DNA from: Gallionella sp.
GTDB lineage: Bacteria > Pseudomonadota > Gammaproteobacteria > Burkholderiales > Gallionellaceae
NCBI GenBank assembly: GCA_028710565.1
Contig: JAQTTV010000001.1
Span: forward strand, 62,001 to 126,000
Reading direction: 5' to 3'
Length of the DNA: 64,000 bases
Below the pieces are notes generated by a model. The model did not search any database, was not told the origin of the DNA, and saw only the letters and a list, made by a program, of their open reading frames with translations. Positions 33,333-56,234 of the stretch are shown piece after piece. Numbering within the stretch: the first letter of the stretch is position 1; each line of letters opens with the position of its first letter. The position numbers and the translations under genes are program-made.

Positions 33333-33363
33333 AATAGTTGTAGTTTTAAGGTGTTGCGTTATT

Positions 33364-33524
33364 TAGTCGCTAGTCTCTAGCTGTTAGTCGTTAGTTTTTA
33401 GTTAGGGGGTAATCTAAGTATCTCTAGCTGAATATATTTCAAATGGTGGACGCGCTGCGCTTATCCACCCTACCAACTAACCGCTATCAACTAACGACTA
33501 GCAGCTAACAACTAACCGCTAATG
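33364..33524. repeat. Composite heptad-repeat element A (between dprA and smg)
   Basis: Six heptads of TAGTCGY type run 33364-33405 (TAGTCGC, TAGTCTC, TAGCTGT, TAGTCGT, TAGTTTT, TAGTTAG). Seven inverse heptads of ACTAACS type run 33476-33524. Between them is a different palindrome around GGTGGACGCGCTGCGCTTAT (33445 on). The arms could fold into one long cruciform. The dprA stop codon lies inside the last heptad. Confidence 0.85.
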
Positions 33525-34607
33525 CGTTCGTTGATATAAGCCGCCAGGCAGGGTATGCACCCGCCCATTCAGCTCCAGCGTCAACAGCATGGCGGATAGC
33601 TGGCTAATCGTCAAGCCGCTACGTGAGCAGAGGGTGTCTAAATCGACGGCATCGTAGCCTAAATGCGTCAGTAAATTGGCATCTGAGTTAGTAAGCGTCT
33701 CAGTCTCGGCGGCGGGAAGACAGATGGGCGAGGGGTGAAACAGACTCCCTAGCTCTTCGAGAACATCTTGTGCCGATTCCACCAGCTTCGCCCCTTGTTT
33801 AATCAGCGCGTGACAGCCCTTGCTTTGCGGTGCGTGGATAGAGCCTGGAATGGCGAATACGTCGCGGTTTTGTTCCATCGCCAAACGCGCAGTAATCAGC
33901 GAGCCGCTTTGCAATGAGGCTTCCACCACCAAACACCCTAAACTCATGCCGCTAATCAGCCGATTGCGGCGTGGAAAGTTGGCAGGTAAAGGCGGCGTAC
34001 CCAAGGCAAATTCTGAAATCAGCAGACCTTGGTCGGCCAAGGTATGCGCTAACTCACGATGTGATGCGGGATAAATTCTGTCCAACCCTGTGCCGACCAC
34101 GGCGATGCTGCTGCCTTGAGCACGCAATGCGCCACGATGGGCGGCGGCATCTATGCCATGCGCCATGCCACTGATGATGCACAAGCCTGCGTCACTGAGG
34201 GCTTGCGCAAAGGCTTCTGCGTTATTTTTACCTTGTGGTGTGGCGGTGCGACTCCCCACAATGGCGAGTGCGGGCTGGTTGAGTAAATCGCGCTGTCCTT
34301 TGACATACAACAAAATGGGCGGATCGGCGATATTCAACAAGGCTTGCGGATAATCCGCATCCGCAAGGGTGACGATGTGATTGCGCTCATCTTGCAACCA
34401 TGAAGCCGCGACGACAAGTGCTTCATTCTCCATGCCTTTGCCGATTTCCGTTGCTATATTGGCTTTGACATGATCCCTGAGTTGGCTAGTCGGCGCGGCA
34501 AAAATCGCTTCTGGTGAACCGAATTGTTTGAGCAGCTTACGCGCGGAATCGCCACCGAGTCCGCGTATCAGGCTGAGTGCCAACCAAGCCTTGAGTGCCG
34601 CGTCCAT
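33519..34607 (-). CDS. dprA: DNA-processing protein DprA
   Basis: Loads RecA on single-stranded DNA taken up during natural transformation. The 362-residue protein has an N-terminal helical part (about 1-70), the Rossmann-like domain with VGSRTATPQGK, ISGMAHGIDAAAHRGAL, TGLDRIYPASH and FPRRNRLISGMS, and a C-terminal winged-helix (DJ/DprA-C) domain. The stop TAG comes from the first unit of the downstream heptad repeat, so the last residues (GGLYQRTH) may differ from relatives. It starts one base after the LysM-protein stop, so the two genes are co-transcribed. Confidence 0.94.
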   Translation of the reverse strand: MDAALKAWLALSLIRGLGGDSARKLLKQFGSPEAIFAAPTSQLRDHVKANIATEIGKGMENEALVVAASWLQDERNHIVTLADADYPQALLNIADPPILLYVKGQRDLLNQPALAIVGSRTATPQGKNNAEAFAQALSDAGLCIISGMAHGIDAAAHRGALRAQGSSIAVVGTGLDRIYPASHRELAHTLADQGLLISEFALGTPPLPANFPRRNRLISGMSLGCLVVEASLQSGSLITARLAMEQNRDVFAIPGSIHAPQSKGCHALIKQGAKLVESAQDVLEELGSLFHPSPICLPAAETETLTNSDANLLTHLGYDAVDLDTLCSRSGLTISQLSAMLLTLELNGRVHTLPGGLYQRTH

Positions 34608-34608
34608 G

Positions 34609-35646
34609 TTAGGGAGTTTGGGCGCGATCCAGTAAGGTAACAGGCAAACGCGTTTCCATCACCAAGGCGTAAGCCACTTTGTTAAAGACGCGGAATACAA
34701 ACAGCAATCCGTTGCGTTCGTCGGGTAAGTTGACATCATTCCCTTGGTATTGCACGGTCTTTCCCGCTTTGTACAAAGCTAATACGTGACCGACCTTCAG
34801 CCCATCTCGTGCACCTTTGTTGAGGGTAATGATGCTGTTCTGGCTGGCTTGGGTCGAACTGCCGTAAATGGAGATGACTTTGCTTTCTATCATGCCTTCA
34901 GGTGCGCGAGGTAGATAGTGGCTGGTCAATTCCTCTTTAAATGGCACCAGACGCGCACCTCTTTCAATTTCTAGACGACTCTTGGTAACGCGAACGGTGC
35001 TGGGTTCATCAATTTTGCTAGGATCTGCGAATTTGACGACCTTGACGTCGCCTAAATAGGTGACTTCGTACCCCAAGATCTCTTCGGTTTCAGGATCGAC
35101 TAAGGGTTTTGAGGGTTGATAAGCCTGCCATTTCGTGCCCTGGTCGGCCGTGAGTCCGCTTGCATAGCCTAACTCTCCTTCGCCTAGTACCACGCGCTGT
35201 TCCTGTAATGCGACTATCATTGGGGCGGTTTCTAGATCATTTTCTTCCACCGCTAAAGGTTGGGCTAAAAACGGATTCAGTGCGCGCGAAGGAATGCTGA
35301 AAATGGGATCGTTGCTTTCCATGCGTGCTGTCGGTGATAGTTTCACCGTGCCGTCGGCCATCTTGACTTCTCCAGAGACCGTTGCAATTTGGAGCTTGCC
35401 TGCATTGCGATCAAATCGAATCACATTGCCAGGGTAAATCCAGTGCGGGTCTTTAATGTCGTTTTGGTTCACGTCCCACAATTGGGGCCATTTCCATGGG
35501 TCTTTAAAAAACAGATTGGAGATGCCCCAAAGTGTGTCACCTTTCACCACAACGTGTTGATCTGGCGCGTCAGGACGGAATTCGGGTTGGGCTGCCGAGG
35601 CGATGGCAGGCAATAAAAAGCAAATCAGCGATATAATCTTGCGCAT
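34609..35646 (-). CDS. LysM peptidoglycan-binding domain protein, secreted
   Basis: 345 residues. The signal peptide is MRKIISLICFLLPAIASA, and a single LysM domain follows (residues 33-80: HVVVKGDTLWGISNLFFKDPWKWPQLWDVN ... YPGNVIRF). The rest is a beta-rich domain of unknown fold with a conserved ITLNKGARDGLKVGHVLALY segment. This type regularly precedes dprA in betaproteobacteria. It probably binds the cell wall. The ATG at 35646 was chosen because it gives a proper signal peptide; the upstream 23 codons lack conservation. It is divergent from def. Confidence 0.87.
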   Translation of the reverse strand: MRKIISLICFLLPAIASAAQPEFRPDAPDQHVVVKGDTLWGISNLFFKDPWKWPQLWDVNQNDIKDPHWIYPGNVIRFDRNAGKLQIATVSGEVKMADGTVKLSPTARMESNDPIFSIPSRALNPFLAQPLAVEENDLETAPMIVALQEQRVVLGEGELGYASGLTADQGTKWQAYQPSKPLVDPETEEILGYEVTYLGDVKVVKFADPSKIDEPSTVRVTKSRLEIERGARLVPFKEELTSHYLPRAPEGMIESKVISIYGSSTQASQNSIITLNKGARDGLKVGHVLALYKAGKTVQYQGNDVNLPDERNGLLFVFRVFNKVAYALVMETRLPVTLLDRAQTP

Positions 35647-35744
35647 GAAAGTGTCCCGCAGAGTGTAAAAGAAAGGCGAAGGGATGTTGCCGCGCCAAAT
35701 TTTGCCTCTAGTCATCTAAATAAGCAAGCATTCATGGAATTCGC

Positions 35745-36248
35745 ATGGCCATACTTAAAATTTTGCAGTACCCAGATCCTCGATTACAAAAAATTGCCCA
35801 ACCTGTAAAACAGGTGACGGACAGCACGCGCAAACTGATACGCGACATGGCAGAAACCATGTATGCAGCCCCTGGGGTGGGCTTAGCTGCGACCCAAGTG
35901 GACGTGCATCAGCAGATTATCATTGCTGATATTTCTGAAAAGCATAATCAGCTTTTGGTGTTGATTAACCCCAAATTGCTGGCGCAAAGTGGCGATGAAG
36001 AAAGTGAAGAGGGCTGTTTATCCGTGCCTGGCATTTACGAAAAAGTACAGCGTGCCGAGAAAATTACCGTCAGCGCGCTGAATGAACGCGGAGTTGAATT
36101 TACCTTGGAAGCCGATGGTTTTCTAGCCGTGTGTATCCAGCATGAGATCGATCATTTGTACGGCAAAGTATTTGTCGATCATTTGTCGCAACTCAAACAG
36201 GGTCGCATACGCGCCAAGTTGATTAAACGGCAACGGGAGAATATGTGA
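35745..36248 (+). CDS. def: Peptide deformylase
   Basis: Removes the formyl group from new proteins, with a catalytic metal. The 167-residue protein has the three family motifs: [17 protein letters not shown] (metal cysteine) and [15 protein letters not shown] (metal histidines and catalytic Glu). It starts at the ATG at 35745. Its stop TGA lies within the first heptad (TGTGAAA) of the following repeat. The usual partner fmt follows after about 100 bases. Confidence 0.96.
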
Positions 36249-36340
36249 AACGTGAAAAACATGAGTATGCAACGGTTTGTTTCACGTTTCACCCTTCTCG
36301 TTTCACCAAAAATATACAACGATTTGTTTCACCTTTCACC
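36244..36340. repeat. Heptad-repeat element B (between def and fmt)
   Basis: TGTGAAA and CGTGAAA (36244-36257) are inverted as TTTCACG, TTTCACC, CTTCTCG, TTTCACC (36280-36307) and again TTTCACC twice (36327-36340). The segments GCAACGGTTTGTTTCACGTTT and ACAACGATTTGTTTCACCTTT (from about 36269 and 36316) are direct near-copies. It is related to element D after hemD. Confidence 0.85.
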
Positions 36341-36349
36341 TAAAAAAAC

Positions 36350-37291
36350 ATGAAAATAGTCTTCGCAGGTACGCCTGATTTTGCAGCGGAAGCGTTAGCT
36401 GCGTTATTGCCCGAACATGAAGTCGTGGCGGTATTGACGCAGCCAGACCGTCCCGCAGGGCGTGGGATGCAGCTTGCCGCCAGTCCTGTTAAACAACTGG
36501 CTTTGCAACATGGCTTGACCGTGATGCAGCCCACGACCTTAAGAACCGACGAAGCAGTGCAAGCGATTGCCGCGCTGAATGCCGATGTGATGGTGGTGGC
36601 GGCTTACGGGCTGATTTTGCCGCAAAACGTTTTGAGCTTGCCGCGCCTAGGCTGTTTGAATATCCACGCGTCCTTGCTGCCTCGTTGGCGCGGTGCCGCC
36701 CCCATTCAACGGGCGATACAAGCGGGCGATACAGCAACAGGCATCACCATTATGCAAATGGATGTGGGGCTAGACACGGGCGATATGCTGCTGCGCGAGA
36801 TCACGCCTATTTCCGCAACCGACACCGCCGCCACTTTGCACGACAAACTCGCAGAACAAGGCGCGCACAGCATCGTCCAAGCTTTGCGCCAATTGCCGCA
36901 ACTCACTGCCGAAAAGCAAGATGCGACACTCGCGACCTACGCCAGCAAGCTGTTAAAAAGCGAAGCGATGATAGACTGGAGCTTGGATGCGCATGTGATT
37001 GAACGCACGGTGCGCGCTTTCAACCCTTTTCCCACCTGCCAAACGCTGTACCAAGGCGCGATGCTCAAAGTCTGGCAAAGCAGCGTGGTGGCAGGTGTGA
37101 CAGGGCAAGCAGGTGAAATCCTCGCCCTAGACAAACACGGCATCACCGTTGCCTGCGGGCAACACGGATTGCGACTGGAAACCGTCCAACGGGCAGGCGG
37201 AAAACCCCAAGCGGCGGGACAATTGGCGCAGGGGATGAAGGTGGGGGAAAAACTAGGGGAAGAGGAAAGGGAGAAGAGGGAAGGGACGTAG
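36350..37291 (+). CDS. fmt: Methionyl-tRNA formyltransferase
   Basis: Formylates initiator Met-tRNA. The 313-residue protein starts [20 protein letters not shown] and carries the formyl-transfer motif ([21 protein letters not shown]) and the [17 protein letters not shown] region. The C-terminal tRNA-binding domain follows. The last dozen residues ([13 protein letters not shown]) are encoded by a purine-rich 7-base repeat run, and the TAG stop lies within a dispersed palindromic repeat, so the tail looks locally rewritten. Function is likely retained. Confidence 0.95.
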
Positions 37292-37309
37292 GTGCGAATT
37301 CATTCGCAC
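37256..37309. repeat. Purine heptads plus dispersed palindrome at the fmt 3' end
   Basis: GGGGAAG, AGGAAAG, GGAGAAG and AGGGAAG (37256-37283) are four successive 7-base units of one type. They are followed by GTAGGTGCGAATTCATTCGC (37288 on), a palindrome also present as an inverted pair in the atpQ-atpR spacer. Confidence 0.7.
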
Positions 37310-37340
37310 GATGTATGTTTGTCATCCAATGGAGAAATAC

Positions 37341-37925
37341 ATGGAAACGGCTATCTTTGGACTTGCTGGTGTAGTGCTTGGAGCTTTGCTAACAATTGCC
37401 AAAGAATGGTGGTTTCAGCGCAGTAAAAACAAGAAGGATGCTGAGTATTTATCAATTCAAGTGTTGTGTCGCCTTGAGCAGTACATTTGGGAGTGTGCGG
37501 ATGTTGCAGGAGACGATGGGCTTTGCTGTGGTCAGCTAAACAAAGACGGAAGGCTCCAAGCCCAAGTTAAGACTACAAAATTTGAACCTGAGTTATTAAA
37601 CGTTGAGTGGAAATCAATACCTCCGAATTTGATGTACGGAATTTTAGATTTTCCTAATCAAGCAATATTGGCGAACAGATATATCGCCGAGGTTTTTGAA
37701 AGCTGTGATGACGGCGAAGGGTTTGACGAGCGACAGGTTCAGTATGCAAAAATCGGCATTGCAGCAGCAGAATTGGCTGCAAAATTGCGCAAACATGTAG
37801 GATTGCCCGTTAAAAAATATGGCGAATGGAATCCTGTACGTTATATGGAACAAGTTGAACAACACAGAATAAAAATAGAAGCCTTGCAGGCAGCCAAGTT
37901 AGGCGATCAGTCTGCTTCGGCTTAA
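37341..37925 (+). CDS. Hypothetical protein with N-terminal membrane anchor
   Basis: 194 residues, not recognised. An N-terminal hydrophobic helix (ETAIFGLAGVVLGALLTIAKEWWFQ) is followed by a soluble, mostly helical domain with cysteines at ECADVAGDDGLCC. The ATG at 37341 follows GGAGAAATAC; two upstream ATGs in frame have no ribosome site. The gene sits between fmt and rsmB, which are usually adjacent or near-adjacent in betaproteobacteria, and is preceded by repeats. It therefore looks like an insertion. Similar single-anchor proteins of unknown function occur in mobile regions, so phage or island origin is possible. Confidence 0.65.
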   Translation: METAIFGLAGVVLGALLTIAKEWWFQRSKNKKDAEYLSIQVLCRLEQYIWECADVAGDDGLCCGQLNKDGRLQAQVKTTKFEPELLNVEWKSIPPNLMYGILDFPNQAILANRYIAEVFESCDDGEGFDERQVQYAKIGIAAAELAAKLRKHVGLPVKKYGEWNPVRYMEQVEQHRIKIEALQAAKLGDQSASA

Positions 37926-37974
37926 TGTGCTACAAAATCCCATTACCATTTACACTTTAATTTTAGGAATCTAA

Positions 37975-39252
37975 ATGCAACAAATACAACTTACCGCTGC
38001 GCATTTGGTTCAGCAAGTGCTGGAAAATGGACGAAATTTGAATCAAATTTTGGAGGATACCTTGCGCAATAAGACGGCTTGGAAGTCGTCGGAGCGGGGG
38101 GCGTTGCAGGATTTGAGTTTCGGGACGTTGCGGTTTTATGGGCAGTTGCGGGGGGTGTTAGGGCAGTTATTGGAAAAGCCGTTGGAAGATCAGCGCATCG
38201 TGTTTGTGTTATTGGTGGCGTTGTATCAGTTGCAATATAGCAAAGCGGGGCAGCACGCGGTGGTGGATCAGGCGGTGCAGGCGGTGCGCACCTTGAATCA
38301 GCGCATGAGCGGCTTGGCGAATGCCGTGCTGCGCAATTTTTTGCGCAATCAAGAGGCTTTGATGCTCGGGGCGGAGCGCACGCCTGAAGGCAAGTTTAGC
38401 CACGCGGCGTGGTGGATAGATATGTTGACCGCGCAATATGGTAAAGAAGTGGCTGCCCAAATTTTGGCGGTGGGCAATCAGCATCCGCCGATGACCTTGC
38501 GGGTGAATGTGCGTCAACACACGGTCGATCAATACGCGGAGTTGCTGGCGAATGAAGGACAATCTGGGCAATTTGTTGCCCCTGATGCGCTGCTGTTGGA
38601 TCAGCCTGTTTCCGTGGATAAATTACCTGGCTTTTTTGACGGCTGGGTGTCGGTGCAGGATGCGGGCGCGCAATGTGCGGCGGGTTTGTTAGATGTCAAA
38701 GATGGCATGAGAGTGTTGGATGCCTGTGCTGCGCCTGGCGGCAAAACCGCACATTTGTTGGAGTTGTACGAGTTGGATTTGTGGGCGGTGGATAAAGATG
38801 CCAAACGTCTGCATCGCGTGGACGAGAATTTGCAACGTTTGCATTTACAGGCGAAATTGGTGCTTGGCGATGCGGAACTGCCGTCGCAATGGTGGAATGG
38901 CAAGCCGTTTGACCGCATTTTGGCGGATGTGCCGTGCTCTGCATCGGGTGTGGTGCGCCGTCATCCCGACATCAAATGGCTGCGCCGCCGCGAAGATATT
39001 TCTGCTTTCGCTAGGCAACAACTGGATATTGTGCAAGCCTTGTGGAGCACCTTGGCGGTTGGTGGGAAAATGTTGTATGTGACGTGTTCAGTGTTTTCGC
39101 AAGAAAACGAAGGTGTGATCGCGGCATTTCTTGCCAAACAAAAAGATGCGACGCGTTTGCCGATACGCTTACCCAATGGCAGTACGGGGCAATTAGTGCC
39201 TAGCGATTTACAAGATGGTTTCTTTTATGCCTTGTTGCAAAAGAATAGCTAA
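37975..39252 (+). CDS. rsmB: 16S rRNA (cytosine-967-C5)-methyltransferase RsmB
   Basis: Methylates C967 of 16S rRNA. 425 residues: an N-terminal NusB-like RNA-binding domain (about 1-140), then the SAM-dependent methyltransferase with LDACAAPGGKTAHLLEL (SAM site), DRILADVPCSASGVVRRHPDIKW (first catalytic Cys) and MLYVTCSVFSQENE (second Cys, nucleophile). All key residues are present. Its 3' end overlaps the DUF4390 gene. It stands in the conserved cluster with ntrY/ntrX. Confidence 0.95.
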   Translation: MQQIQLTAAHLVQQVLENGRNLNQILEDTLRNKTAWKSSERGALQDLSFGTLRFYGQLRGVLGQLLEKPLEDQRIVFVLLVALYQLQYSKAGQHAVVDQAVQAVRTLNQRMSGLANAVLRNFLRNQEALMLGAERTPEGKFSHAAWWIDMLTAQYGKEVAAQILAVGNQHPPMTLRVNVRQHTVDQYAELLANEGQSGQFVAPDALLLDQPVSVDKLPGFFDGWVSVQDAGAQCAAGLLDVKDGMRVLDACAAPGGKTAHLLELYELDLWAVDKDAKRLHRVDENLQRLHLQAKLVLGDAELPSQWWNGKPFDRILADVPCSASGVVRRHPDIKWLRRREDISAFARQQLDIVQALWSTLAVGGKMLYVTCSVFSQENEGVIAAFLAKQKDATRLPIRLPNGSTGQLVPSDLQDGFFYALLQKNS

Positions 39253-39868
39253 TACGCCGTTTGCGGCGGGATGGCAATACAACCTGCATCGCTTAGTGCG
39301 TTGCGGGCTGTGGCTGTTACTGCTGGCGTGGGGTAGCGTGGTTTACGCCGACAGTATCTCCGTCAATAAAACGGATGTGCGGGTGAGTGAGGATAGCTAC
39401 CAGTTAGCTGCAGAATTTAATATTCGTCTTAACTCGGTGGTTGAACAAGCCTTGTCACATGGCGTGGCAATTTACTTTGTGAGCGAATTTAGTGTGACGC
39501 GCTCGCGTTGGTATTGGTTTGATGAAGAAGTCATCAAGAGTGAACATGTGATCAAATTGTCCTATAACGTACTGACGCGACAATATCGCATTTCGCATGG
39601 TGCGTTGTATCAAAATTTCCCGACTTTAGAAGAAGCCTTGCAGATTATGCAAAGGCAAAGTTCACCCCCTATTTCCATTGATGTCATGAAAAAGGCAGGT
39701 CATTATCTGGCAGGTGCTCGGCTGAGATTGGATATTGAACAATTGCCTAAATTGCTGCAAGTGAATGCACTGACCAGTAAAGATTGGGATTTAGACACTG
39801 ACTGGTTTCGCTGGGTGATACGTCCTGACGACATTGCGGCTCGCCAACCTAGTGAGGCTGTGCGTTGA
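39215..39868 (+). CDS. DUF4390 domain-containing exported protein
   Basis: 217 residues. A membrane or signal helix (VRCGLWLLLLAWGSVVYA) ends near residue 45, and the DUF4390 domain follows with conserved VEQALSHGVAIYFVSEFSVTRSRWYWFDE, LSYNVLTRQYRIS and WFRWVI. The start lies within rsmB: ATG at 39215 or 39227. The overlap with ntrY (TTGA, 39865-39868) and the constant linkage to ntrYX suggest a link to envelope or nitrogen/redox signalling, but its function is not known. Confidence 0.85.
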   Translation: MVSFMPCCKRIANTPFAAGWQYNLHRLVRCGLWLLLLAWGSVVYADSISVNKTDVRVSEDSYQLAAEFNIRLNSVVEQALSHGVAIYFVSEFSVTRSRWYWFDEEVIKSEHVIKLSYNVLTRQYRISHGALYQNFPTLEEALQIMQRQSSPPISIDVMKKAGHYLAGARLRLDIEQLPKLLQVNALTSKDWDLDTDWFRWVIRPDDIAARQPSEAVR

Positions 39869-41988
39869 AATACGTTATTCTCATTAGTGCTGCAGCGGGT
39901 GCGGCATTGCTGTACTTTCTCTCTAGCAATAGTGCGAACACGGAGTTGTTTTCCAATAACTATTACAACGCGCTCTTTCTCACAGGCTTGTTGGTTGTTG
40001 GTTTATCCGTGTTGGTGCTCTATCAATTGTGGCAATTGCGCACCAAGCTGAAGAACAAAGTATTCGGTTCGAAGCTAACCATGAGATTGGCGTTGTTTTT
40101 TATTGGGATTGCGGTTTTGCCTGGTATTTTGGTGTATGCCGTTTCGGTTGAATTTCTGAGTAAAAGCATTGAGTCTTGGTTTGATGTGCGGGTTGAGAAA
40201 GCCTTGGAAGGCGGACTTAATTTAGGCAAAAATGCCTTAGATAATAGTCTGCGTGAGTTATCCCAAAAGACTCAATTTGTTGGATTGCTCTTGGCGGAGA
40301 AATCCCCGTCCCAGTACCAATCTTCCTTACGCAGGTTGATTGATGAGGGGATGGCGCAAGAAGCAGCTGTTTTTACGACCTCTGGTAAGCCGATTGCTTT
40401 TGCCAGTGTCGCCGCTAACCATAAGCCCGTGCTCATTGACCCGTACATGATGGCGGAAGTCACGAAAAAATATCAATACATGGCGGTTGATACCGTGCCG
40501 AATAAAGGTTTGATTTTACGTGTCTTAGTGTTGGTTAAAGCACATTACCCTGATACGCGTCAGTTTGTATTGCAGTTTACCCAGCCTGTCCCCCCTAAGG
40601 TAGAACACGATGCCGAAACCGTGCAGGGCGTGTATCGAGATTACCAAGCCTTAGTGTTGTCTCGCGTGGGATTGAAACGGCTGTATGGTATTACCTTGAC
40701 CTTGTCACTGCTGATCGTGTTGCTGGCAGCGGTGTCGGCGGCTTTTTTCATCAGTGACAAATTAGGCTCGTCTTTGGAGGCGTTAGCAGAAGGGACGCGT
40801 GCCGTCGCCCAAGGGGATTTTAGCGGGGAATATCCCGTGCGTAGTCAAGATGAACTGGGTGCGTTAACGGGCTTATTTAATCAGATGATACGCCAGTTAG
40901 CCGAAGCTAAAGCGACCAGTGAATTGCAACAGCAACAGGTGGAGAGTGCGAAAGGTTATTTGGAAAGTGTATTGACGCATTTGTCATCAGGGGTGATCGG
41001 TTTTGATACGGATTTGCGCTTACGCTCGGTTAATACTCGTGCAGGGCAAATTTTATCTGCCCCCCTGCCAGAGATGCAGCGCATGAGTTTGGTTGATATT
41101 GCTGCGAAATACCCGCTGTTGACCTCATTTTGCAGCACGATACACGATGCTTTTGCTGAGGTTGATAGCGGTGAATGGCGTAAGCAAATTGAACGTACGA
41201 GTAAAAATGGTACACAAGTTTTGTTGATGCGGGGAACACGTTTGCCGCAAGGGGCGGAAGCGGGTTATGTGGTGTTATTTGATGACATTAGTCATTTGTT
41301 GCAAGCAGAGCGTCAAGCAGCGTGGGGTGAGGTGGCGCGGCGTTTGGCGCATGAAATTAAAAATCCACTGACGCCGATTCAACTCTCCGCCGAACGTTTG
41401 CAGCATAAACTCAGTGCGCATTTAAATCCTGCCGATGCACAATTGTTGCAGCGTGCTACCCAAACTATCGTCAGTCAGGTGGGCGCATTGAAAAATATGG
41501 TCAGCGATTTTGCCAATTATGCGCGAGGTCCTGTCGTCAAATTGACCCCGCTGGATTTGCATCAGTTGATACGAGAAGTATTGAATTTATATGAGGCGAA
41601 TGAGATGCGGATGACAGCAACTTTGCATTCACCTTACGCCATCGTTCAAGGTGATGCCACGCGTTTGCGTCAGGTTATCCATAATTTGCTGCAAAATGCC
41701 CAAGATGCCTTGCAGGGGCAAGCGGATGCGCATATCACACTGAGCACGTCTTCGCAGGGAGGTAACATCAGTTTGCTGGTCGCCGACAATGGTAGCGGCT
41801 TTTCCGATCAAGTGCTTTCTCGCGCCTTTGAACCCTATATGACCACCAAGAGTAAAGGCACGGGGTTGGGATTGGCCATCGTGAAAAAAATTATTGAAGA
41901 ACACAACGGGCAAATTAGTATTGAAAACAACATAAACGGTGGGGCAACGATTACGATCACCCTCCCCACGGTGATGGAGGTGGCATGA
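39865..41988 (+). CDS. ntrY: NtrY-like membrane sensor histidine kinase
   Basis: 707 residues with a TTG start overlapping the previous stop. There are four membrane helices (about 5-20, 30-52, 70-95 and 270-290), with an extracytoplasmic region between the last two. HAMP (GSSLEALAEGTRAVAQGDFS) and PAS domains follow. The phospho-acceptor histidine lies in ARRLAHEIKNPLTPIQLSAERL; the ATPase domain has NLLQNAQDAL and TKSKGTGLGLAIVKKI. NtrY-type kinases respond to nitrogen or redox/oxygen cues in different bacteria. Its partner is the next gene (ATGA overlap). Confidence 0.93.
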   Translation: MKYVILISAAAGAALLYFLSSNSANTELFSNNYYNALFLTGLLVVGLSVLVLYQLWQLRTKLKNKVFGSKLTMRLALFFIGIAVLPGILVYAVSVEFLSKSIESWFDVRVEKALEGGLNLGKNALDNSLRELSQKTQFVGLLLAEKSPSQYQSSLRRLIDEGMAQEAAVFTTSGKPIAFASVAANHKPVLIDPYMMAEVTKKYQYMAVDTVPNKGLILRVLVLVKAHYPDTRQFVLQFTQPVPPKVEHDAETVQGVYRDYQALVLSRVGLKRLYGITLTLSLLIVLLAAVSAAFFISDKLGSSLEALAEGTRAVAQGDFSGEYPVRSQDELGALTGLFNQMIRQLAEAKATSELQQQQVESAKGYLESVLTHLSSGVIGFDTDLRLRSVNTRAGQILSAPLPEMQRMSLVDIAAKYPLLTSFCSTIHDAFAEVDSGEWRKQIERTSKNGTQVLLMRGTRLPQGAEAGYVVLFDDISHLLQAERQAAWGEVARRLAHEIKNPLTPIQLSAERLQHKLSAHLNPADAQLLQRATQTIVSQVGALKNMVSDFANYARGPVVKLTPLDLHQLIREVLNLYEANEMRMTATLHSPYAIVQGDATRLRQVIHNLLQNAQDALQGQADAHITLSTSSQGGNISLLVADNGSGFSDQVLSRAFEPYMTTKSKGTGLGLAIVKKIIEEHNGQISIENNINGGATITITLPTVMEVA

Positions 41989-42614
41989 AGACAATTTTAG
42001 TGGTGGACGATGAAATGGGGATCCGTGAATTACTGGCGGAAATTTTATTTGATGAAGGCTATCAAGTGGACTTGGCAGAAAACGCTGAACAGGCGCGGAT
42101 TTATCGTCAAACCCACCAACCTGACTTGGTGTTGTTGGATATCTGGATGCCCGATGTGGATGGCATTGCCTTGCTCAAAGAATGGTTGAGTGAAAACTTG
42201 CTGACCATGCCTGTGGTGATGATGTCGGGACATGGCACGATAGAAACTGCTATGGAAGCCACGCGCATCGGTGCGGTTGATTTTCTGGAAAAACCAATTT
42301 CATTGCAAAAGCTGTTGTCAACGGTGTCGAGAGCGATGAGTGCTGGGATGCGCCCTATTTTGCATGCTGAGCCTAAACCTGTTGAAGTGATGGTTGCGCC
42401 TGATCTTCCCCGTATCAAGGAACTTTCGGCATGGTTAGCGTTGCCCTTGCGTGAAGCACACGAACAATTTGATGCATATTATTTTCAACATCACTTGGTG
42501 CAAGAGGATGAAAATATGACCCGTATAGCAGAAAAGACGGGTATGGAACGCACACATTTGTACCGAAAACTCAAACAGTTAGGAATTAAGCTCCACAAAA
42601 AATCAGCCCAGTGA
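41985..42614 (+). CDS. ntrX: NtrX-like response regulator lacking the AAA+ domain
   Basis: 209 residues: receiver domain (1-120) with phospho-acceptor Asp in LVLLDIWMPDVDG and the conserved Lys in FLEKPIS, then directly a C-terminal Fis-type helix-turn-helix (MTRIAEKTGMERTHLYRKLKQLGI). The sigma-54-activating AAA+ domain of about 240 residues that normally separates these parts is absent, so it should bind DNA without activating sigma-54. It is coupled to ntrY. Short forms of this regulator may be common in betaproteobacteria; I cannot check. Confidence 0.9.
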   Translation: MKTILVVDDEMGIRELLAEILFDEGYQVDLAENAEQARIYRQTHQPDLVLLDIWMPDVDGIALLKEWLSENLLTMPVVMMSGHGTIETAMEATRIGAVDFLEKPISLQKLLSTVSRAMSAGMRPILHAEPKPVEVMVAPDLPRIKELSAWLALPLREAHEQFDAYYFQHHLVQEDENMTRIAEKTGMERTHLYRKLKQLGIKLHKKSAQ

Positions 42615-42633
42615 TGAACAAAATAGGTTGATA

Positions 42634-42786
42634 GTCGTTAGTCGTTAGTCGTTAGTCGTTAGTCGTTAGTTGGTGGTTGGTAGTTGGTAGTTGGTAGTTG
42701 GTAGGGGGATATTTGTAGTGTGATTATGGTTTATTCAATGTATTCATGCTTTTGCTCTGCTAACTAAAAACTAACGACTAATAACC
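42634..42786. repeat. Heptad-repeat element C (after ntrX)
   Basis: Five perfect GTCGTTA units (42634-42668) are followed by GTTGGTG and four GTTGGTA units (to 42703), ten heptads in all. An inverse arm GCTAACT-AAAAACT-AACGACT-AATAACC lies at 42759-42786. The inverse arm matches the left arm of element A, so both belong to one family in opposite orientation. Confidence 0.9.
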
Positions 42787-42819
42787 CATATCCGATTATT
42801 TGTACGCAACATCTTACCA

Positions 42820-43164
42820 TCATGCTTCAAAGGCATTTTTGATCCATTGTACATTGCGTCCTTGAGCATCTTCCATCATTAGGGCATCAAAGCGACAAGG
42901 GGGCGTGCGCGCTTGGGTGCTGAGATACTGCTGTGCAGTGCGAATTATGCGTTGTTGTTTATGATAGTCGATGCTGGCCGCCGCGCCGCCGAAATCGCTC
43001 TGACGGCGCAAGCGCACTTCAATAAAAACCAACACCGCGCCATCTAGCATGATTAAATCAATCTCACCAAAACGGCTATGATAGTTTTGTGTGACGAGGC
43101 GCAGACCTTGTCGCTGTAAATAGTGTAACGCCCAACGTTCAGCCTCTGCCCCCGCTGTGTTCAT
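42820..43164 (-). CDS. yraN: YraN family (UPF0102) nuclease-fold protein
   Basis: 114 residues: GAEAERWALHYLQRQGLRLVTQNYHSRFGEIDLIMLDGAVLVFIEVRLR contains the E, D and ExR residues of the restriction-endonuclease-like YraN fold; VFIEVR is usually VFVEVR. The biochemical role remains uncertain. It overlaps the LpoA-like gene by four bases, as in the enterobacterial yraM-yraN arrangement. Confidence 0.9.
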   Translation of the reverse strand: MNTAGAEAERWALHYLQRQGLRLVTQNYHSRFGEIDLIMLDGAVLVFIEVRLRRQSDFGGAAASIDYHKQQRIIRTAQQYLSTQARTPPCRFDALMMEDAQGRNVQWIKNAFEA

Positions 43165-44252
43165 GGCTGATTGCGCGCTTGACCTGGGAATAGTCTTACC
43201 TCCGTGGTGTCAGCATCCGTAGATTGGGCGCGCCCTTGTACAAACACAGCGGGGGCGGCACTTCGTAGAAATTGATGGCCACTGAGTCGAATCTCCCCAC
43301 TGACACCATTTAGCGGCAAAGCATCGCTCAATTGATTTTGTATCACCAACTGAATCAGTCGGAACGCATCCACGCCCAAGGCATACAAGCGCTCAAGCTC
43401 CACAGGCAACGGTGGGTTGGCACGAGGATAAGCACGTACTGCTGGATGATCGGCTTGCACTAACCAAGGCATGTCCACAAATCGAATTCCATTGAGTTCA
43501 AAGTTGGTTGGTGAATAATTGGCAAATATCTGCGACGTGGCATAAATGGGTAATTTGCTCGGCAAATACGGACGCATGACACGCGCTTGTTGAGCATTGC
43601 CTGCCAAGAATATCAGCGTGTCTGGTTGCATAGTCATGTCTGCTAGTTGTCCCAAGTCGCCATTAAACTCAATCTCACGATTGATTGTTCCGCCGATTGC
43701 ACTCCACGCCTCTTCAAAAGCAAACTGCATCCGCAAATCAAAGGGTGACATGGAGCCAATCACAATCGCGTTACGTAACCCCGTCTGTGCCGCCTGTTGT
43801 GCCACTAAGCGAGCTTCCGCCTCTACCGCCATACCAAAGGAATACAGTGGAAATTCGCTGTTCTCCTCTATGGTGTTGAGAACCAACGTAGGTACTTTGA
43901 TATTCGGTTGTAGTGCAATCAGAGCCGCTCCTTTGCGTGTCAAAGGGCCGACCACAGCCTGCGCACCACTTGCCAGGGCTTGTGCGTATAAAGCGATGAT
44001 TTCATTGTTTTCATCTGTGCAATCATATACCCGTACTGGCAAGGTTTTTTGGCCTATGGTTGAGGCTGCGATAAAACCTTGTGCCACCGCAGACGCGGCG
44101 GCACTAAATGCTGGAGACTTCAGTGGCAGCAGTAACGCAATATGTGGTACTGCAATAGGTGTGGGAATGGTGGTGCTCAACTCGACCGCATGCACCCCTG
44201 TGCTCATACAAAGTGCGACACCCATCATCCAACTCAAAAATAAACGCTGCAT
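43161..44252 (-). CDS. LpoA-like penicillin-binding protein activator (short form)
   Basis: 363 residues with a signal peptide (MQRLFLSWMMGVALCMSTGVHA). It is a periplasmic-binding-protein-like domain matching the C-terminal half of LpoA (PF04348): HIALLLPLKSPAFSAAASAVAQGF, AQAVVGPLTRKGAALI, DTLIFLAGNAQQARVMRPYL and GVSGEIRL. E. coli LpoA (about 680 residues) has an additional N-terminal TPR-like domain that is absent here, and no lipobox is evident. Activation of a class A penicillin-binding protein is inferred from the family. yraN follows, ATGA-coupled. Confidence 0.85.
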   Translation of the reverse strand: MQRLFLSWMMGVALCMSTGVHAVELSTTIPTPIAVPHIALLLPLKSPAFSAAASAVAQGFIAASTIGQKTLPVRVYDCTDENNEIIALYAQALASGAQAVVGPLTRKGAALIALQPNIKVPTLVLNTIEENSEFPLYSFGMAVEAEARLVAQQAAQTGLRNAIVIGSMSPFDLRMQFAFEEAWSAIGGTINREIEFNGDLGQLADMTMQPDTLIFLAGNAQQARVMRPYLPSKLPIYATSQIFANYSPTNFELNGIRFVDMPWLVQADHPAVRAYPRANPPLPVELERLYALGVDAFRLIQLVIQNQLSDALPLNGVSGEIRLSGHQFLRSAAPAVFVQGRAQSTDADTTEVRLFPGQARNQP

Positions 44253-44446
44253 ATAGAACCTCTAGCAAAATGAGAGGGTGCATTATATGTTGTTGCCAGC
44301 CTCAAATGTATTGCCATGCCGTAACTCCTTTTGGGGGATGCTCAACGCAGGGTAGACAACAGTTATGAAACAGTGGATTTTGAGTAGGTTTTCCTCGCGC
44401 AGGCGTAATTCCAGCTACAATTCGCTACCAATACATAGGAGGAATG

Positions 44447-44620
44447 ATGAAATATATTTTGATGATGATCGCGTTGTGTCTCTCTGCGTGCGGCGATGCG
44501 CCTGAACAAAAGATCGCCGCGCCGCAACGAGCAGCTCTGAATAAAGCGAGTGGTGTAGATCAAACGGTGCAGCAAAGCACCGATGATGCCAAAAAGAAAA
44601 TTGAAGATGCTGAAAAATAA
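44447..44620 (+). CDS. Small putative lipoprotein, 57 residues
   Basis: A short gene with a signal peptide ending in a lipobox (MMIALCLSACGD: LSAC). The mature part is short and highly charged or polar, with AAPQRAALNKASGVDQTV and a Lys/Asp/Glu-rich end (DDAKKKIEDAEK). A ribosome site AGGAGG lies at 44437-44442; the second ATG (44447) gives better spacing than the first (44444). It converges with the CorA-like gene three bases away. Such tiny entericidin-like lipoproteins are common; function unknown. Confidence 0.75.
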   Translation: MKYILMMIALCLSACGDAPEQKIAAPQRAALNKASGVDQTVQQSTDDAKKKIEDAEK

Positions 44621-44623
44621 AGC

Positions 44624-46270: not shown

Positions 46271-46285
46271 GATGGTGGAGGTAGG

Positions 46286-47400: not shown

Positions 47401-47440
47401 TTTTATGAACTTTAGGGGATTTGGCCGATATTGCAATGGA

Positions 47441-47472
47441 TAGAAAAAGCCCACATACGTGGGCTTTTTCTA
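47441..47472 (-). terminator. Strong bidirectional-type terminator
   Basis: TAGAAAAAGCCCAC (47441-47454) and GTGGGCTTTTTCTA (47459-47472) form a perfect 14-bp stem with a 4-base loop, A-rich on one side and T-rich on the other. It ends transcription of the upstream small exported-protein gene (minus strand). Confidence 0.9.
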
Positions 47473-47484
47473 TCTAAGTATCCT

Positions 47485-47526
47485 GTGCGGAACGCCTTAG
47501 TCGTTCCGCACGAAGCGACTAAGGCG
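47485..47526 (-). promoter_or_regulatory. Mutually exclusive perfect hairpins at the stop codon of the Gly-rich protein gene
   Basis: GTGCGGAACG (47485-47494) pairs with CGTTCCGCAC (47502-47511). Alternatively CGCCTTAGTCG (47493-47503) pairs with CGACTAAGGCG (47516-47526). The two stems share bases and cannot form together. The second includes the stop codon of the gene at 47519-47947. Confidence 0.55.
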
Positions 47527-47947
47527 TATGTGTTGTCGTGCTGGTGTTGCTGACGACTGCCGCGCCAACTACAGCGGCTCCGCCTGCAACTGCCAGACCA
47601 CCCGCTGTTAAACCGCCAGCTGTACCACCAGCTACAGCACCACCAGCAGCACCACCAGCAGCAGCACCGCCAGCCATTGGTCCGATTGCAACGCCATTCG
47701 CAGCAGTAGGAACGTACGCGCCATTCGACATCTTGATGACATTAAACTTAGTGCCTGCTGGGAAAGATTGACCGTTTACGGTCACTGAGTGAGAAAAAGT
47801 ATGACCCGTTTCAGTTGAAACACCTTCTGTGCCATGTGTATATTTTACGCCATCAACTGTTGTGTCAATACCAACAGTAGGTGCCGCAAATACGCTGCCA
47901 GATACTGCCATGGCTAAAGTAAAAGCTAAAACGCTTAATTTTTTCAT
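47519..47947 (-). CDS. Small exported protein with Gly/Ala-rich C-terminus
   Basis: 142 residues, not recognised. The signal peptide is MKKLSVLAFTLAMAVSGSVFA. A short polar domain follows (VDGVKYTHGTEGVSTETGHTFSHSVTVNGQSFPAGTKF), then a run of GGAAAGGAAGG-type repeats (about residues 92-130) that is nearly glycine/alanine/valine only. Such glycine-zipper-like segments can insert in membranes or self-associate. A good terminator follows, so it is monocistronic and possibly well expressed. Confidence 0.7.
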   Translation of the reverse strand: MKKLSVLAFTLAMAVSGSVFAAPTVGIDTTVDGVKYTHGTEGVSTETGHTFSHSVTVNGQSFPAGTKFNVIKMSNGAYVPTAANGVAIGPMAGGAAAGGAAGGAVAGGTAGGLTAGGLAVAGGAAVVGAAVVSNTSTTTHTP

Positions 47948-48034
47948 AAAATAATACTCCTAAAAAGTTTGATGGATTGAGAACTGCAACCGCAGGTTCT
48001 GATTATCCTGAAAATTCCGCAGCTTGCAAGTCTT

Positions 48035-50830: not shown

Positions 50831-50832
50831 GT

Positions 50833-51540: not shown

Positions 51541-51612
51541 TTTCTTCCTTTGCGTCCCTCAAACATTGTTCATGAGCAGGCTTTGTGTACCGCTTACTCA
51601 GCTTTGGGTGCG

Positions 51613-54387
51613 TTAACCACTATTCCTTAATCCTGTTGCAATGCCGTTGATCGTCAAATGAATCGCGCGTTTGACCAGTGTGTCGTTATCCCCTGCGCGA
51701 TGGCGTTCAAGCAAGGAAACTTGCAAGTGATTAAGGGGATCAATGTAAGGGGTGCGCGTGGTGAGGCTGCGTGCAAATACGGGATTGTCTTGCAATAAAG
51801 TCGTTTGCCCTGTTACGGCGAAGAGCATCTCGACGGTAATTTCCCATTCACGATGAATGGCACCGTAAATACGTTCTCGCAGCTCGATATCTGCCACGAG
51901 CTCGGCATAACGCGACGCGATGCCCATATCTGTTTTGGAAAGCACCATGTCCATATTGGACATCAATCCTCGGAAGAACGGCCAATTTTGGTACATGGCT
52001 TGTAATTGAGCCAAGCCTGCATCACCCTCTTTTTCGATGAATTGTTTGACTGCGCTGCCAAACCCCAGCCACCCTGGTAATAGTGTGCGAGTCAATCCCC
52101 AGCTAAACACCCAAGGGATTGCCCGTAAATCTTCAATGCGATCAGAGGCTTTGCGCGCAGAAGGGCGGCTGCCAATATTCAGTTCAGCAATCTCACGTAT
52201 CGGTGTGGCGGTAAAGAAATACTCTGTAAATCCTGGTGTGTCATAGACCAAGTTTCGATAGACCTTAAATGCGCTTAAGCTCAGTACTTCCATAATGCGA
52301 TGATATTCGGGCATCGCGCTGTCCGCACCGTGATGGTGTAGCAGGGTCGCTTCCAAAGTCGCCGCCAACAAAGTTTCCAAATTGCGCCGCCCGATTTCGG
52401 GGTTAGAGTATTTGCTGGAAATCACTTCACCTTGTTCGGTGATACGGATTTGCCCATTCACGCTACCAGGCGGTTGCGCCAAAATTGCATCGTAGCTAGG
52501 GCCGCCCCCTCGTCCCACCGTGCCGCCACGTCCGTGGAATAAGCGTAGCTCGATGCCGTGACGCTCAAATACCTGTACTAATTCCAACTCGGCTTTATAC
52601 AGCTCCCAGTTGGCGGTGAGGTAGCCGCCATCTTTATTGCTATCCGAGTAGCCTAGCATGACTTCTTGGGTGTTGCCTCGCGCCGCCAACAGCTTGCGGT
52701 AAAAAGGTAGGTTGAACAGCGCGTCCATAATCACGGCACAACCTTGCAAATCTTCGATGGTTTCAAATAACGGAATAATATTGATATGCAAAGCGGGTGA
52801 TTCGCCTGATTCGAGCAAGTTCACTTGTTGCAACATCAGGGCTAATTCCAGCATGTCGCTGACGGAATCTGTTTTTGAGATGATGTGATTCGGCAAAGCT
52901 TCACGACCATAGCAGCGATGAATTTCTGCGGCAGCTTGCATAATGCGTAATTCGCTTTGCACCACAGGGCTGTATTGTTCAATATCGCCGATTAGCAGCT
53001 CGCCAGCCTGCAATGCAGACAACAGCACTTCGCGTCGTTCCAGTTCGCTCAGGTCGGCATAGTTAACCTGCCCTGAATGACGGGAAAAGAGTTCGGAAAC
53101 CGTTTGTTCATGAATCGCGCTATGTTGGCGCATATCCAGTGGCGCAAGATGAAATCCAAAAACTTCCGCTGCACGGCGTAGATTCTCGAGTCGTCCACGC
53201 GCTAAATAAACTGCACCATGACTAAACAGGGAGTCGATCAATACATCCAAGTCAGCAATAAATTCTTTGGGCAAAGCGTAAGGTTGCGCCGCTTTATCTA
53301 CAGGAGACAGATGGGCGATTTCCAAATTCAATTTTTTCGCCGTTGCGGACAAGCGCGAGTAAATCAGAATCAACGCGCGGCGATACGGTTCATCTTCACG
53401 ACTCAACGCCTTGTCTGGAGATGCATCTGCGAGTTTGCGCAATGCATCGCTTACTGTCACCATGCGATCCGTTAAGCTTAATCTTGAACCTAGCAAATGG
53501 GTTTCTTTCAGGTAATGTTCAAAAATCACCGTGGAATGTTGCTGCACCGCATAGCTCATCACGTCGTGTGTGACGAATGGATTGCCATCACGATCTCCGC
53601 CAATCCAGCTGCCTACTCTGAGTAAATTAGGCACGCGAATGTCTTTATCAAAGCGCGTTTCTAATTGCTTCTCTAAGTTGACGTAAATTTGGGGGATTTC
53701 GGTCAGGAAGGTATAGCGATAAAATTCCAGCCCATTTTTGATTTCATCGCGCACGGTGAGTTTGGCGGTGCGCAACATGCGGGTTTGCCACAAAATCAAC
53801 ACGAAACGATGCAGGGTCTCCTCGTTGTGCGCCAGCTCATCAGGCGTCATGTCAATGCGATAACGGTCTGACAGTAATTTGGAAATAATGAGCTGACAGT
53901 CCAATATGCTTTTACGCTGCACTTCGGTTGGATGTGCGGTCAACACGGGGGAAATGATGGCGGAGTCCAAAAATGCCTGCAATGTTTCTTTGCTGGGTTT
54001 TTTCGCTTCTAATCGCTCTAAGGCGCGCAACAAACTTCCTTCTTTTGCGGGTAAGCGTGCTTTGAGATAGGTGTGATGGCGACGGTTATGATGTAAATCT
54101 TCCGCAATATTGGAAAGTTGCGAGAAATAACTAAAGGCGCGCACCACAACCAGTGTTTCACTGGGCGAGAGCGCATCGAGCGTTTTTTCGAGCGAAATAC
54201 GATCTTCATCATGCTGCGTTTTGCGGAAACGTACCGCCACTTGGCGTACATTTTCAATGAGTTCGTAAGTTTCCTCGCCCTCTTGCTCGCGCAAGGTGTC
54301 ACCTAAAATGTGCCCCAATAAGCGTACATCTTCTCGTAATGGCAGGTCTTTACTGGAAATATTCGTAGGGGTCGCAATTAAATTCAT
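51613..54387 (-). CDS. ppc: Phosphoenolpyruvate carboxylase
   Basis: Replenishes oxaloacetate from phosphoenolpyruvate and bicarbonate. The 924-residue protein carries the two PROSITE-type motifs: [14 protein letters not shown] (catalytic His) and [17 protein letters not shown], plus [23 protein letters not shown]. The C-terminus ends in TGLRNSG, matching the conserved RNTG-type end. It is divergent from hemC with an 80-base gap that would hold both promoters. The reading frame is intact. Confidence 0.97.
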
Positions 54388-54467
54388 TATATTCTCGGCG
54401 TAAAAGCACGGCGCACCCTATGTTAGAATACGCCGCTAACAAATCACATTATTATTCAGGAAATGCC

Positions 54468-55412
54468 ATGAGTCAGATCGCCCCAACTCTTCCCACTCGT
54501 TTAATCATCGCTTCACGTGAAAGTGCGTTAGCAATGTGGCAAGCGGAACATATCCAAGGCAGGTTGCGTGCATTATATCCGCAAACTGAGGTCAGTATAT
54601 TGGGGATGACAACCCAAGGCGACCAAATACTGAACGTCAGTTTGTCTAAAATAGGCGGTAAAGGTCTATTTGTCAAAGAGTTAGAGGTTGCTATGGAAGA
54701 GGGGCGTGCTGATTTGGCGGTGCATTCTCTTAAGGATGTTCCCATGAATATGCCTGATGGATTTAGTCTGGCAGCCATTGGCGAACGCGAAGACCCTCTG
54801 GATGCTTTTGTATCTAATCATTTTGATAGTCTCTCCGCCTTGCCCGCTGGCAGCATCGTCGGTACTTCCAGCTTGCGTCGTGAAAGCCAATTACGTGCAC
54901 GCTTCCCGCATTTGGTCATTCAACCTTTGCGTGGTAACGTGCAAACACGCTTGCGCAAATTGGACGAAGGACAATACGCGGCGATTATTTTGGCAGCAGC
55001 AGGGCTGAAACGCTTGGGATTGGGTGAGCGGATACGCAACATTATTTCCAGCGACGATAGTTTGCCCGCAGTGGGGCAGGGCGCGTTGGGTATCGAATGT
55101 CGCAGCGATCGCGCCGATGTCATTGCTTGTGTACAAGCTTTGCATCACGCCGACACCGCTGCCTGTGTGCTGGCGGAACGTGCCTTGAGTCGTGCGTTGG
55201 CGGGTAGTTGCCAAGTGCCACTAGGTGGGTTTGCTCAAATTTTAGACGGCAAGCTGCGTTTGCGTGGTTTTGTGTCCAGTCCTGATGGTCAGCAAATGGT
55301 GCGTGCCGAAGCGTTTGGTGACATCGCCGATCCTGAAGCATTGGGTAACCAAGTGGCTGATGCGCTGCGCGCACAAGGTGCGGATGTGATCCTCGCCGCG
55401 CTCAATGGCTAA
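54468..55412 (+). CDS. hemC: Porphobilinogen deaminase (hydroxymethylbilane synthase)
   Basis: Polymerises four porphobilinogens into hydroxymethylbilane. From the ATG at 54468 the protein has 314 residues and starts [25 protein letters not shown]. The cofactor-binding cysteine is in [14 protein letters not shown], and [23 protein letters not shown] is family-typical. An upstream TTG/ATG extension of 16 codons was rejected. hemD overlaps by eight bases, so the haem genes form an operon. Confidence 0.96.
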
Positions 55413-56133
55413 CCTCAACGGTCGGCGTATTCTCGTCACACGCCCGTCGCATCAAGCGGGTGGGCTGGCACAAGGCATCCTTGCTGCGGGTGGGGAGCCC
55501 GTGTTGTTTCCGCTACTGGAAATAAGTCCTGTTGCCGATACCGCAGCATTGCACGCCCAAATATCCCAGCTTGCAGACTATCAGTTAGCGATTTTTATCA
55601 GTCCAAATGCCGTGGAGCAGGGCGTAGCAGCGATACGCAAAGTCGGGCTGAAACCTACATGCAGAATCGCCACGGTAGGGCAGGCAAGTGCGCAGGTTCT
55701 ACGCGCGCTAGGCTTTGACCACATCCTTGTGCCACGCGAGCGTTTTGACAGCGAAGGCTTATTGGCATTGCCCGAATTGCAAGATGTGGCAGGTTGGCGC
55801 GTGATGATATTTCGGGGAGATGGCGGTCGGGCATTGTTAGGCGATACACTCAAAGCACGTGGCGCAATCGTTGATTACGCAACCTGTTACCAGCGCAGCA
55901 CGCCCCTTCCTGCCGCGATAGACTGGCATCATTTAGATGCCATCACGATCACCAGCAGCGAAGCACTGACGTATTTGCGGCAACTAATTACTGAAGCGCA
56001 GTTGAGCATTCCCTTGTTTGTGCCGCATCCGCGTATCGCTGCATTGGCGCAGCAACAAGGTTGGCAACACATTTATCCGACCGACAGCGGCGACCTTGGT
56101 TTGCTATCGGGTTTAAATACGTGGGCATCGTGA
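55405..56133 (+). CDS. hemD: Uroporphyrinogen-III synthase
   Basis: Closes hydroxymethylbilane into uroporphyrinogen III. 242 residues with the low sequence conservation usual for HemD; recognisable parts are [51 protein letters not shown] and [12 protein letters not shown]. It overlaps hemC and precedes hemX. The stop (56131-56133) is followed after a few bases by a heptad repeat, so the junction with hemX has been expanded. Confidence 0.92.
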
Positions 56134-56134
56134 T

Positions 56135-56234
56135 GCGTGAAATGTGAAAAGGCGTGGGCGTGCGACGGTTTTTTCACCTTTCACGTTTCACCTTTCACGT
56201 TTCACCTTTCACGTTTCTTGTTTCTTGTTTCACA
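56135..56234. repeat. Heptad-repeat element D (between hemD and hemX)
   Basis: CGTGAAA-TGTGAAA (56136-56149) faces nine consecutive heptads: TTTCACC/TTTCACG alternating (56172-56213), TTTCTTG twice and TTTCACA (to 56234). The segment GTGCGACGGTTTTTTCACC resembles the core of element B. A frame through these heptads would encode an artefactual Phe-rich N-terminus of HemX. Confidence 0.9.

Follow-up and report, generated by a model that had tools for sequence, protein, structure and literature searches.

How do long hairpins built of seven-base units come to lie at the 3' ends of genes, and why do the genes' stop codons sit inside them? The question is raised by a stretch of 64,000 nucleotides from a Gallionella genome (the window; positions 62001–126000 of contig 18 in an assembly of 3.27 Mb and 69 contigs), in which a preliminary description had pointed out four such elements, here called A to D, behind dprA, def, a response-regulator gene and hemD. 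All four are present, at or near the positions where it had placed them (Table 1). We consider it probable that they belong, as copies, to two of the several short dispersed hairpin families present in Gallionella. It also seems likely that these families are dispersing intercistronic hairpins akin to repetitive extragenic palindromic (REP) sequences or miniature inverted-repeat transposable elements (MITEs), whose arms supply the stop of the upstream gene and change in length by heptads.

Anatomy and unit families

An element is about 80–200 bp long, with arms of tandem heptads on both sides of a core. Elements A and C belong to one family in opposite orientation (T-type, unit TAGYNGN, most commonly TAGTCGT), while B and D are of G-type (unit GTGAAAN) and have a common core resembling GTGGGTATGCGACGGTTTG. 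The arm common to A and C, the core common to B and D, and the position of the dprA TAG within a heptad and of the def TGA within the first heptad had all been recognized correctly. The units point inward, with 51 inward sites against no outward site for T, G and P units in samples of this genome and its sister species (a site is a pattern start, and one element may count more than once). Further unit families are P (GRGAAGR) and, in relatives, A (GACAGAN) and K (TAGCTNN). The existence of several unrelated heptad families, the inward arms and the differing families at one junction are features that the preliminary description could not see.

Beyond their arms, T-type copies have non-heptad sequence in common, including an outer end resembling AAGGTGTTGCGTACAAATAATCGGG. 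Allowing up to three mismatches, this end occurs in 13 copies in the genome of the window and in none in the control; it was found in none of 24 relatives searched (15 congeners); in the sister species (G023), which lay outside that search, the element at dprA has the end part of it. Since the congeners G010, G011 and G015 are rich in TAGTCGT heptads and yet lack the outer end, the arms are common to members of the genus and that part of the body is lineage-specific.

The G-type arms carry a signature of their own. Between neighbouring units the mismatch rates at positions 1 to 6 are 0.20, 0.28, 0.21, 0.22, 0.23 and 0.37, against 0.75 at position 7, which is the value for random bases (35 arrays, picked by self-similarity). 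In 300 simulated runs with uniform mutation and the same choice of phase, position 7 reached a mean of 0.29 and a maximum of 0.47. The copying of whole heptads would carry the seventh base along, so the G-type arms look constrained on the hexamer GTGAAA with a free seventh base; slippage does not account for units that keep GTGAAA but vary at random in the seventh base. Complementarity between the free bases of opposite arms was not found, 4 of 25 pairs matching against 6.5 expected. In T-type arms the pattern is less clear, TAG being most constant and positions 5–7 variable.

Abundance and the period of seven

Pattern counts extended the elements to the whole genome, as the preliminary description had proposed; they give matches, not elements. 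The pattern TAGTCGTTAGTCGTTAG, with up to two mismatches, returned 151 matches (85+66) against 2 (0+2) for its reversed control, and GTGAAACGTGAAANGTGAAA returned 201 (81+120) against 35 (1+34), a control that is not independent in that arrays with A as seventh base also match the reversed pattern. Iterated nucleotide profiles were run on an 822 kb sample, a quarter of the genome, whose contigs were partly picked for carrying matches and whose densities are possibly high; they located 26 T-type and 19 G-type loci. A T or G element is present in 42 of the 516 spacers of at least 20 bp in this sample.

The period was tested by an intergenic autocorrelation set beforehand, counting, in the sample's spacers of more than 60 bp, windows that matched at 17 of 21 positions for a given lag. 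Lags of 7, 14, 21 and 28 gave 763, 682, 500 and 444 windows, and every other lag from 2 to 30 gave 0–6, which leaves seven as the only strong short period. Shuffled spacers gave no window and coding sequence gave 16 at lag 7; the periodicity noted in the window persists.

Across the genus, T or G pattern matches range from 0 to 175 per genome. Exact GTGAAA hairpins were found in the genome of the window only, among 398 genomes of the phylum drawn without any known G-type congener, and a plasmid search with element C found no similar sequence. The TAGTCG unit, as the evidence suggests, recurs beyond this genus. In a viral collection, four contigs from different samples carry inward heptad hairpins of TAGTCG type whose cores are unrelated (loci L252, L253, L262 with L272 on one contig, and L264). 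Viral contigs were also tried as a test of specificity and did not discriminate, a control hexamer giving three stretches, equal to GTGAAA; the outward arrangement of GTGAAA was absent from them and inward GACAGA occurred twice.

Placement at gene 3' ends

In the 822 kb sample, 31 of the 45 elements (18 of 26 T and 13 of 19 G) overlap a gene 3' end or lie within 10 bp of one, as against 6.6% of element-free spacer positions (binomial P 5.5e-16 for T and 8.6e-12 for G). Gene starts and stops came from a codon-model caller written for this analysis, and many of the comparison genomes are draft assemblies. The clustering at 3' ends first noticed in the window is supported for both families. Flanking gene pairs were co-directional for 37 elements, convergent for six and divergent for one, with one element at a contig edge; divergent spacers make up 24% of element-free spacer bases. 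Among 20 congener loci chosen for their arrays, 19 are intergenic with respect to predicted genes, all 19 between co-directional pairs, and one (L299) lies inside a predicted gene.

Turnover between related species

The sister species G023 has about 91–92% DNA identity with the genome of the window. The comparison between the two covered elements A to C, with C compared at its start only, where the sister contig ends. At dprA both species carry the element, with arms that differ by exactly 7 bp and 14 bp, and in each of the 19 other genus-mates the spacer is short and lacks it. Differences in unit number and orthologous empty sites, both anticipated by the preliminary description, are borne out. 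Among the T-type elements compared with the sister, six of nine arm gaps are multiples of seven (7, 7, 7, 14, 28 and 112 bp), one arm at a time. The earlier argument that inverted arms speak against slippage is not supported by these gaps, which are of the kind that slippage produces.

The sister lacks element B or has it in decayed form, and by eye neither the def–fmt spacers of the 19 other genus-mates nor 18 readable genus-mate spacers after the third of the four genes contain T or G arms. A site in G049 (L161) orthologous to the 3' side of that third gene holds direct TAGGCAT heptamer repeats that lack an inverted partner. Two other junctions are occupied by G-type elements in the genome of the window and by T-type elements in the sister; among 68 orthologous spacers of the two species, 14 contain two or more heptad pairs of a single type in one or the other. 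Eight of the 20 congener loci could be mapped to the sample of one or the other, and four of these eight junctions also have a heptad element in the genome of the window (two T, two G). In G000 and G007 the junction before a gene that by eye is likely to encode phosphatidylserine decarboxylase carries T-type elements whose cores are similar.

The sister has repeats of other kinds as well. One of about 150 bp has dozens of matches (for example L130:13032-13184 and L138:14049-14206), several places matching both strands as an inverted repeat would. A different hairpin, of the CCCTCGCCCGC..GCGGGAGAGGG type, stands at L151, about 4694-4744, and on sister contig C108 at the orthologue of C2 24129, where the genome of the window has G-type elements.

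The carA–carB junction

One junction was followed through the genus. It was chosen after looking striking, with a G-type element in G001 and a T-type element in G010. A match was found in 30 of 31 genus genomes, the start of carB could be read in 29 loci and the end of carA also in 28. Heptad hairpins occupy the spacer in 21 of these 29 genomes and, as judged by eye, fall into four unit families (T in seven, P in six, K in five, G in three). Four genomes have no spacer at all, the TAA of carA being joined to the ATG of carB. The remaining four comprise a TAG-rich imperfect hairpin (G017), a non-heptad hairpin (G046) and two loci with an inserted or unrelated open reading frame (ORF), in G005 and in the genome of the window. 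In G005 the gene between carA and carB (L319) encodes a protein with an ORF6N domain (Pfam E 2.9e-32), which the protein of a gene at the same place in G016 (L338) resembles by eye; in the genome of the window (L331) the unrelated ORF preceding carB has no Pfam match, and the end of carA was not found beside it.

On a tree built from 1950 bp of carB the families do not cluster. It takes 19 changes to account for the six states, against a mean of 19.0 for shuffled labels, so that the labels are as scattered as shuffled ones on a tree whose bootstrap is not settled (12 of 26 inner branches open). Well-supported pairs differ in family, T in G011 against G in G003, and T in G044 against P in G045. 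Within the T-type loci, related cores stand in opposite orientations in G015 and G044 as compared with G010, G011 and G041 (G043 and G023 match neither), which implies separate insertions or inversion between the arms.

The stop codon of carA follows the family of the element. Where the element directly abuts the stop, this is TAG in all 11 T and K cases and TGA in all three G cases; in G016 (K) the element follows the inserted gene, carA ends with TAA, and the locus was excluded from the count. The carA stop is the unit's own in 14 of 14 T, K and G cases, and none of 100,000 permutations over 24 genomes did as well. P-type loci have TAA in four cases and TGA in two, and the four empty sites all have TAA. 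The last codons are affected too: carA ends with AGT CGT TAG, the heptad read in frame, in four of the seven T-type genomes, and with AGG AAG or AGG AAA in all six P-type genomes.

The family found at the junction is related to the families abundant in the same genome. The four measured congeners with a T element at carA–carB are those with the highest T counts (P 1.1e-4, 23 genomes; three of the seven T genomes lie outside the genome-wide counts). G elements occur there mostly in genomes with many G matches (P 1.6e-3, 23 genomes), G014 having few.

A proposed model of spread and tolerance

These observations would fit the following sequence of events. Copies with a common core or outer end lie at many sites, so the element has presumably been copied around the genome, and copies would be retained chiefly in the interval from the last codon that a gene needs to the start of its neighbour, for the most part in co-directional pairs. 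The heptads of T, K and G carry TAG or TGA, and a period of seven, as can be read from the units, places that stop in all three frames, so that the upstream frame closes within about three units whichever side it is entered from. Insertion may be tolerated because these heptads offer a stop in every frame, allowing the element to settle at stop–start junctions. It could then come to provide the gene's stop and last codons, as at carA. After insertion the arms would grow or shrink, often by whole heptads, probably through slippage; for T-type arms such changes in length are seen against the sister. Each species would amplify its own families and the same junction would switch family fast.

We infer that the spread of copies is an active process. 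The preliminary description had offered a mobile palindromic element as one possible nature of the hairpins, and this gains support from the non-coding sequence common to the dispersed copies (the T outer ends and the profile-defined loci) and from the empty site at dprA.

Several results weigh against this model. In the genome of the window, genes ending in T-type elements are not enriched in TAG stops (5/19 versus 142/752 other genes, P=0.29), and TGA at G-type elements is borderline only (7/13 versus 216/758, P=0.05); enrichment of the matching stop is plain only in the comparison of species at carA–carB. The P and A units contain no regular stop, so the supply of stops is not general. Three of the nine arm gaps, of 92, 93 and 116 bp, do not correspond to whole heptads; they adjoin diverged sequence. 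For four of the eight mapped congener elements (two of them one site) neither the genome of the window nor its sister has a counterpart. No transposase or other mover was identified, a search of the genome (99.99% complete, four candidates scored) giving no match to PF01797 at E 0.001. No clear target-site duplication was seen either: none is consistent in 13 copies inspected by eye, and the TTAA on both sides of the element at dprA in the sister is only suggestive. Finally, the occupancy of carA–carB is far above that of spacers in the sampled quarter of the genome of the window, a hint that selection or a hotspot acts in addition to tolerance.

Alternative explanations

This last point leads to a possible, though in our judgement doubtful, alternative, in which an intercistronic RNA hairpin is under selection for the stability of the upstream message or for insulating or tuning downstream translation, its sequence being replaced while the hairpin is kept. 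We retain it because of the high occupancy of carA–carB, the near-constant length of its spacer (77–95 bp in 18 of 20 measured, G016 with its inserted gene excluded) and the strong folding of most of its spacers. Twelve were folded (10 of the 21 with heptads and two others), and 11 gave z scores of -2.3 to -11.8, G017 giving -1.4. The conserved hexamers of G-type arms, with their free seventh base, would agree with it; the non-complementary free bases of the two arms would not. It is also opposed by the four genomes in which carA and carB are directly joined, by the lineage-specific site at dprA and by the modest folding of the elements in the window (z -1.6 to -4.4, A and C folded in part). 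Among 40 folded hairpins, a spacing of seven was the commonest between one-by-one internal loops (13 of 40 spacings), without being exclusive. The role in termination that had been suggested was not supported by a consensus scan (stem then T run) of 33000–43200, in which none of the 15 terminator-like sites fell in A, B or C (shuffles 14.0).

It is improbable that the elements are MITEs or REP sequences of a known type, moved by a host transposase of the RAYT or insertion sequence (IS) kind, with heptad arms as an incidental feature. The sequence common to dispersed copies and the TTAA-like junction at dprA are what such a mover would leave. The PF01797 search (Y1_Tnp, RAYT) rules out a REP transposase as mover in the genome of the window, the 13 copies inspected have no consistent duplication, and congeners with T heptads have different cores and lack the T outer end.

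We would give similarly little credence to a bolder proposal, in which a trans-acting system with a pitch of seven bases reads or writes the elements as tandem hexamers plus a free base, each species having its own 'word'. Hairpins at preferred operon junctions would then be re-written, the host stop and C-terminal codons switching along with them.

An origin without mobility, the arms arising locally by slippage and template switching in pre-existing quasi-palindromes, is very improbable for whole elements and largely refuted by the non-heptad sequence common to unlinked loci, the empty site at dprA and the random seventh base of G-type units, and it survives for arm length, where the one-armed gaps of 7 to 112 bp and the recurrence of period seven in unrelated units speak for it.

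If the model of dispersing, stop-supplying hairpins is true, these elements are selfish or co-opted DNA fitted to tight operon gaps by stops in every frame at both ends, and they repeatedly edit the 3' ends of housekeeping genes. The carA–carB junction offers a ready comparative system, with many species, interchangeable families and a readout in the stop codon and last residues. It becomes testable why heptamers, and not other periods, recur in bacterial intergenic repeats.

Features of the window

The elements differ in detail. The heptad arms of A extend over about 33363-33407 and 33470-33521, and a stretch resembling its small G+C-rich inverted repeat is found in several other T-type copies. 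In C the left arm is expanded (about 42627-42704), and the first clear heptads begin 12–17 bp past the TGA of the upstream gene. That gene had been called ntrX; its 209-residue product, a short response regulator, matches only a response-regulator receiver domain in Pfam and is not demonstrably NtrX. By eye, the TGA of hemD sits in a diverged first unit of D. The nearest named relatives by peptide deformylase belong to Gallionellaceae and other Nitrosomonadales (best 80 of 588 loci, near-identical records possibly omitted).

Table 1. Heptad hairpins and adjoining genes in the window
Feature	Position	Strand	Basis or remark
Element A, T-type heptad hairpin 3' of dprA	about 33342..33522	- (strand of dprA)	nhmmer model match
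Small G+C-rich inverted repeat within A (GGTGGACGCGCTGCGCTTATCCACC)	33445..33469	.	read from sequence
dprA stop codon TAG within heptad	33519..33521	-	TAA in sister species
dprA, 3' end abuts A	33519..34607	-	Pfam DNA_processg_A and DprA_WH
def, 3' end abuts B	35745..36248	+	Pfam Pep_deformylase
Element B, G-type heptad hairpin with second core, def–fmt spacer	36243..36340	+	
def stop codon TGA in first GTGAAAN unit	36246..36248	+	TAA in sister species
fmt, downstream of B	36350..37291	+	Pfam Formyl_trans_N and _C
Response-regulator gene, 3' end faces C	41985..42614	+	Pfam Response_reg only
Element C, T-type heptad hairpin, response-regulator gene/UPF0102 spacer	42616..42818	+	
UPF0102 gene, other side of C	42820..43164	-	Pfam UPF0102
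hemD, 3' end abuts D	55405..56133	+	Pfam HEM4
Element D, G-type heptad hairpin, hemD–hemX spacer, right arm expanded	about 56130..56234	+	
hemX, downstream of D	56280..57371	+	Pfam HemX

An Rfam scan of 33200–56400 gave two matches, both under the gathering score of their family. One, to mir-BART16 (27.3 of 100 bits), overlaps element D and was taken as a chance match to a hairpin; the other is a weak match to a threonine operon leader on the minus strand at 47440-47515 (E 0.014). A predicted gene contains, at 47612-47674, a short tandem repeat of about 12 bp.

Comparison with known systems

The short tandemly repeated repetitive (STRR) sequences of cyanobacteria are intergenic heptamers, present in many copies per genome and with genome-specific units. 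The elements described here resemble them in their seven-base tandem units, their intergenic position, their many loci and the specificity of units to genomes. The cyanobacterial arrays, however, run in one direction and are not known to have an inverted partner, whereas here inverted arms surround a core, lie between the stop and the start of gene pairs and can supply stops. TAACTGA direct repeats are reportedly found in marine Beggiatoaceae, mostly just upstream of start codons. These are likewise said to be gene-adjoining heptamer arrays with stop codons in the unit and a sporadic distribution; the units here (TAGYNGN, GTGAAAN, GRGAAGR) are different, form inverted arms, fall into several families and lie at gene 3' ends.

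REP sequences and bacterial interspersed mosaic elements (BIMEs), associated with RAYT, are also intercistronic palindromic repeats of similar size and in many copies. The Gallionella elements differ from them in having arms made of heptad arrays of variable length, in a genome with no RAYT-family match. With MITEs and Correia-type elements they have in common a non-coding, dispersed, hairpin-forming nature and a common body; unlike those elements they show no consistent target duplication in the copies inspected by eye, and their arms change by heptads.

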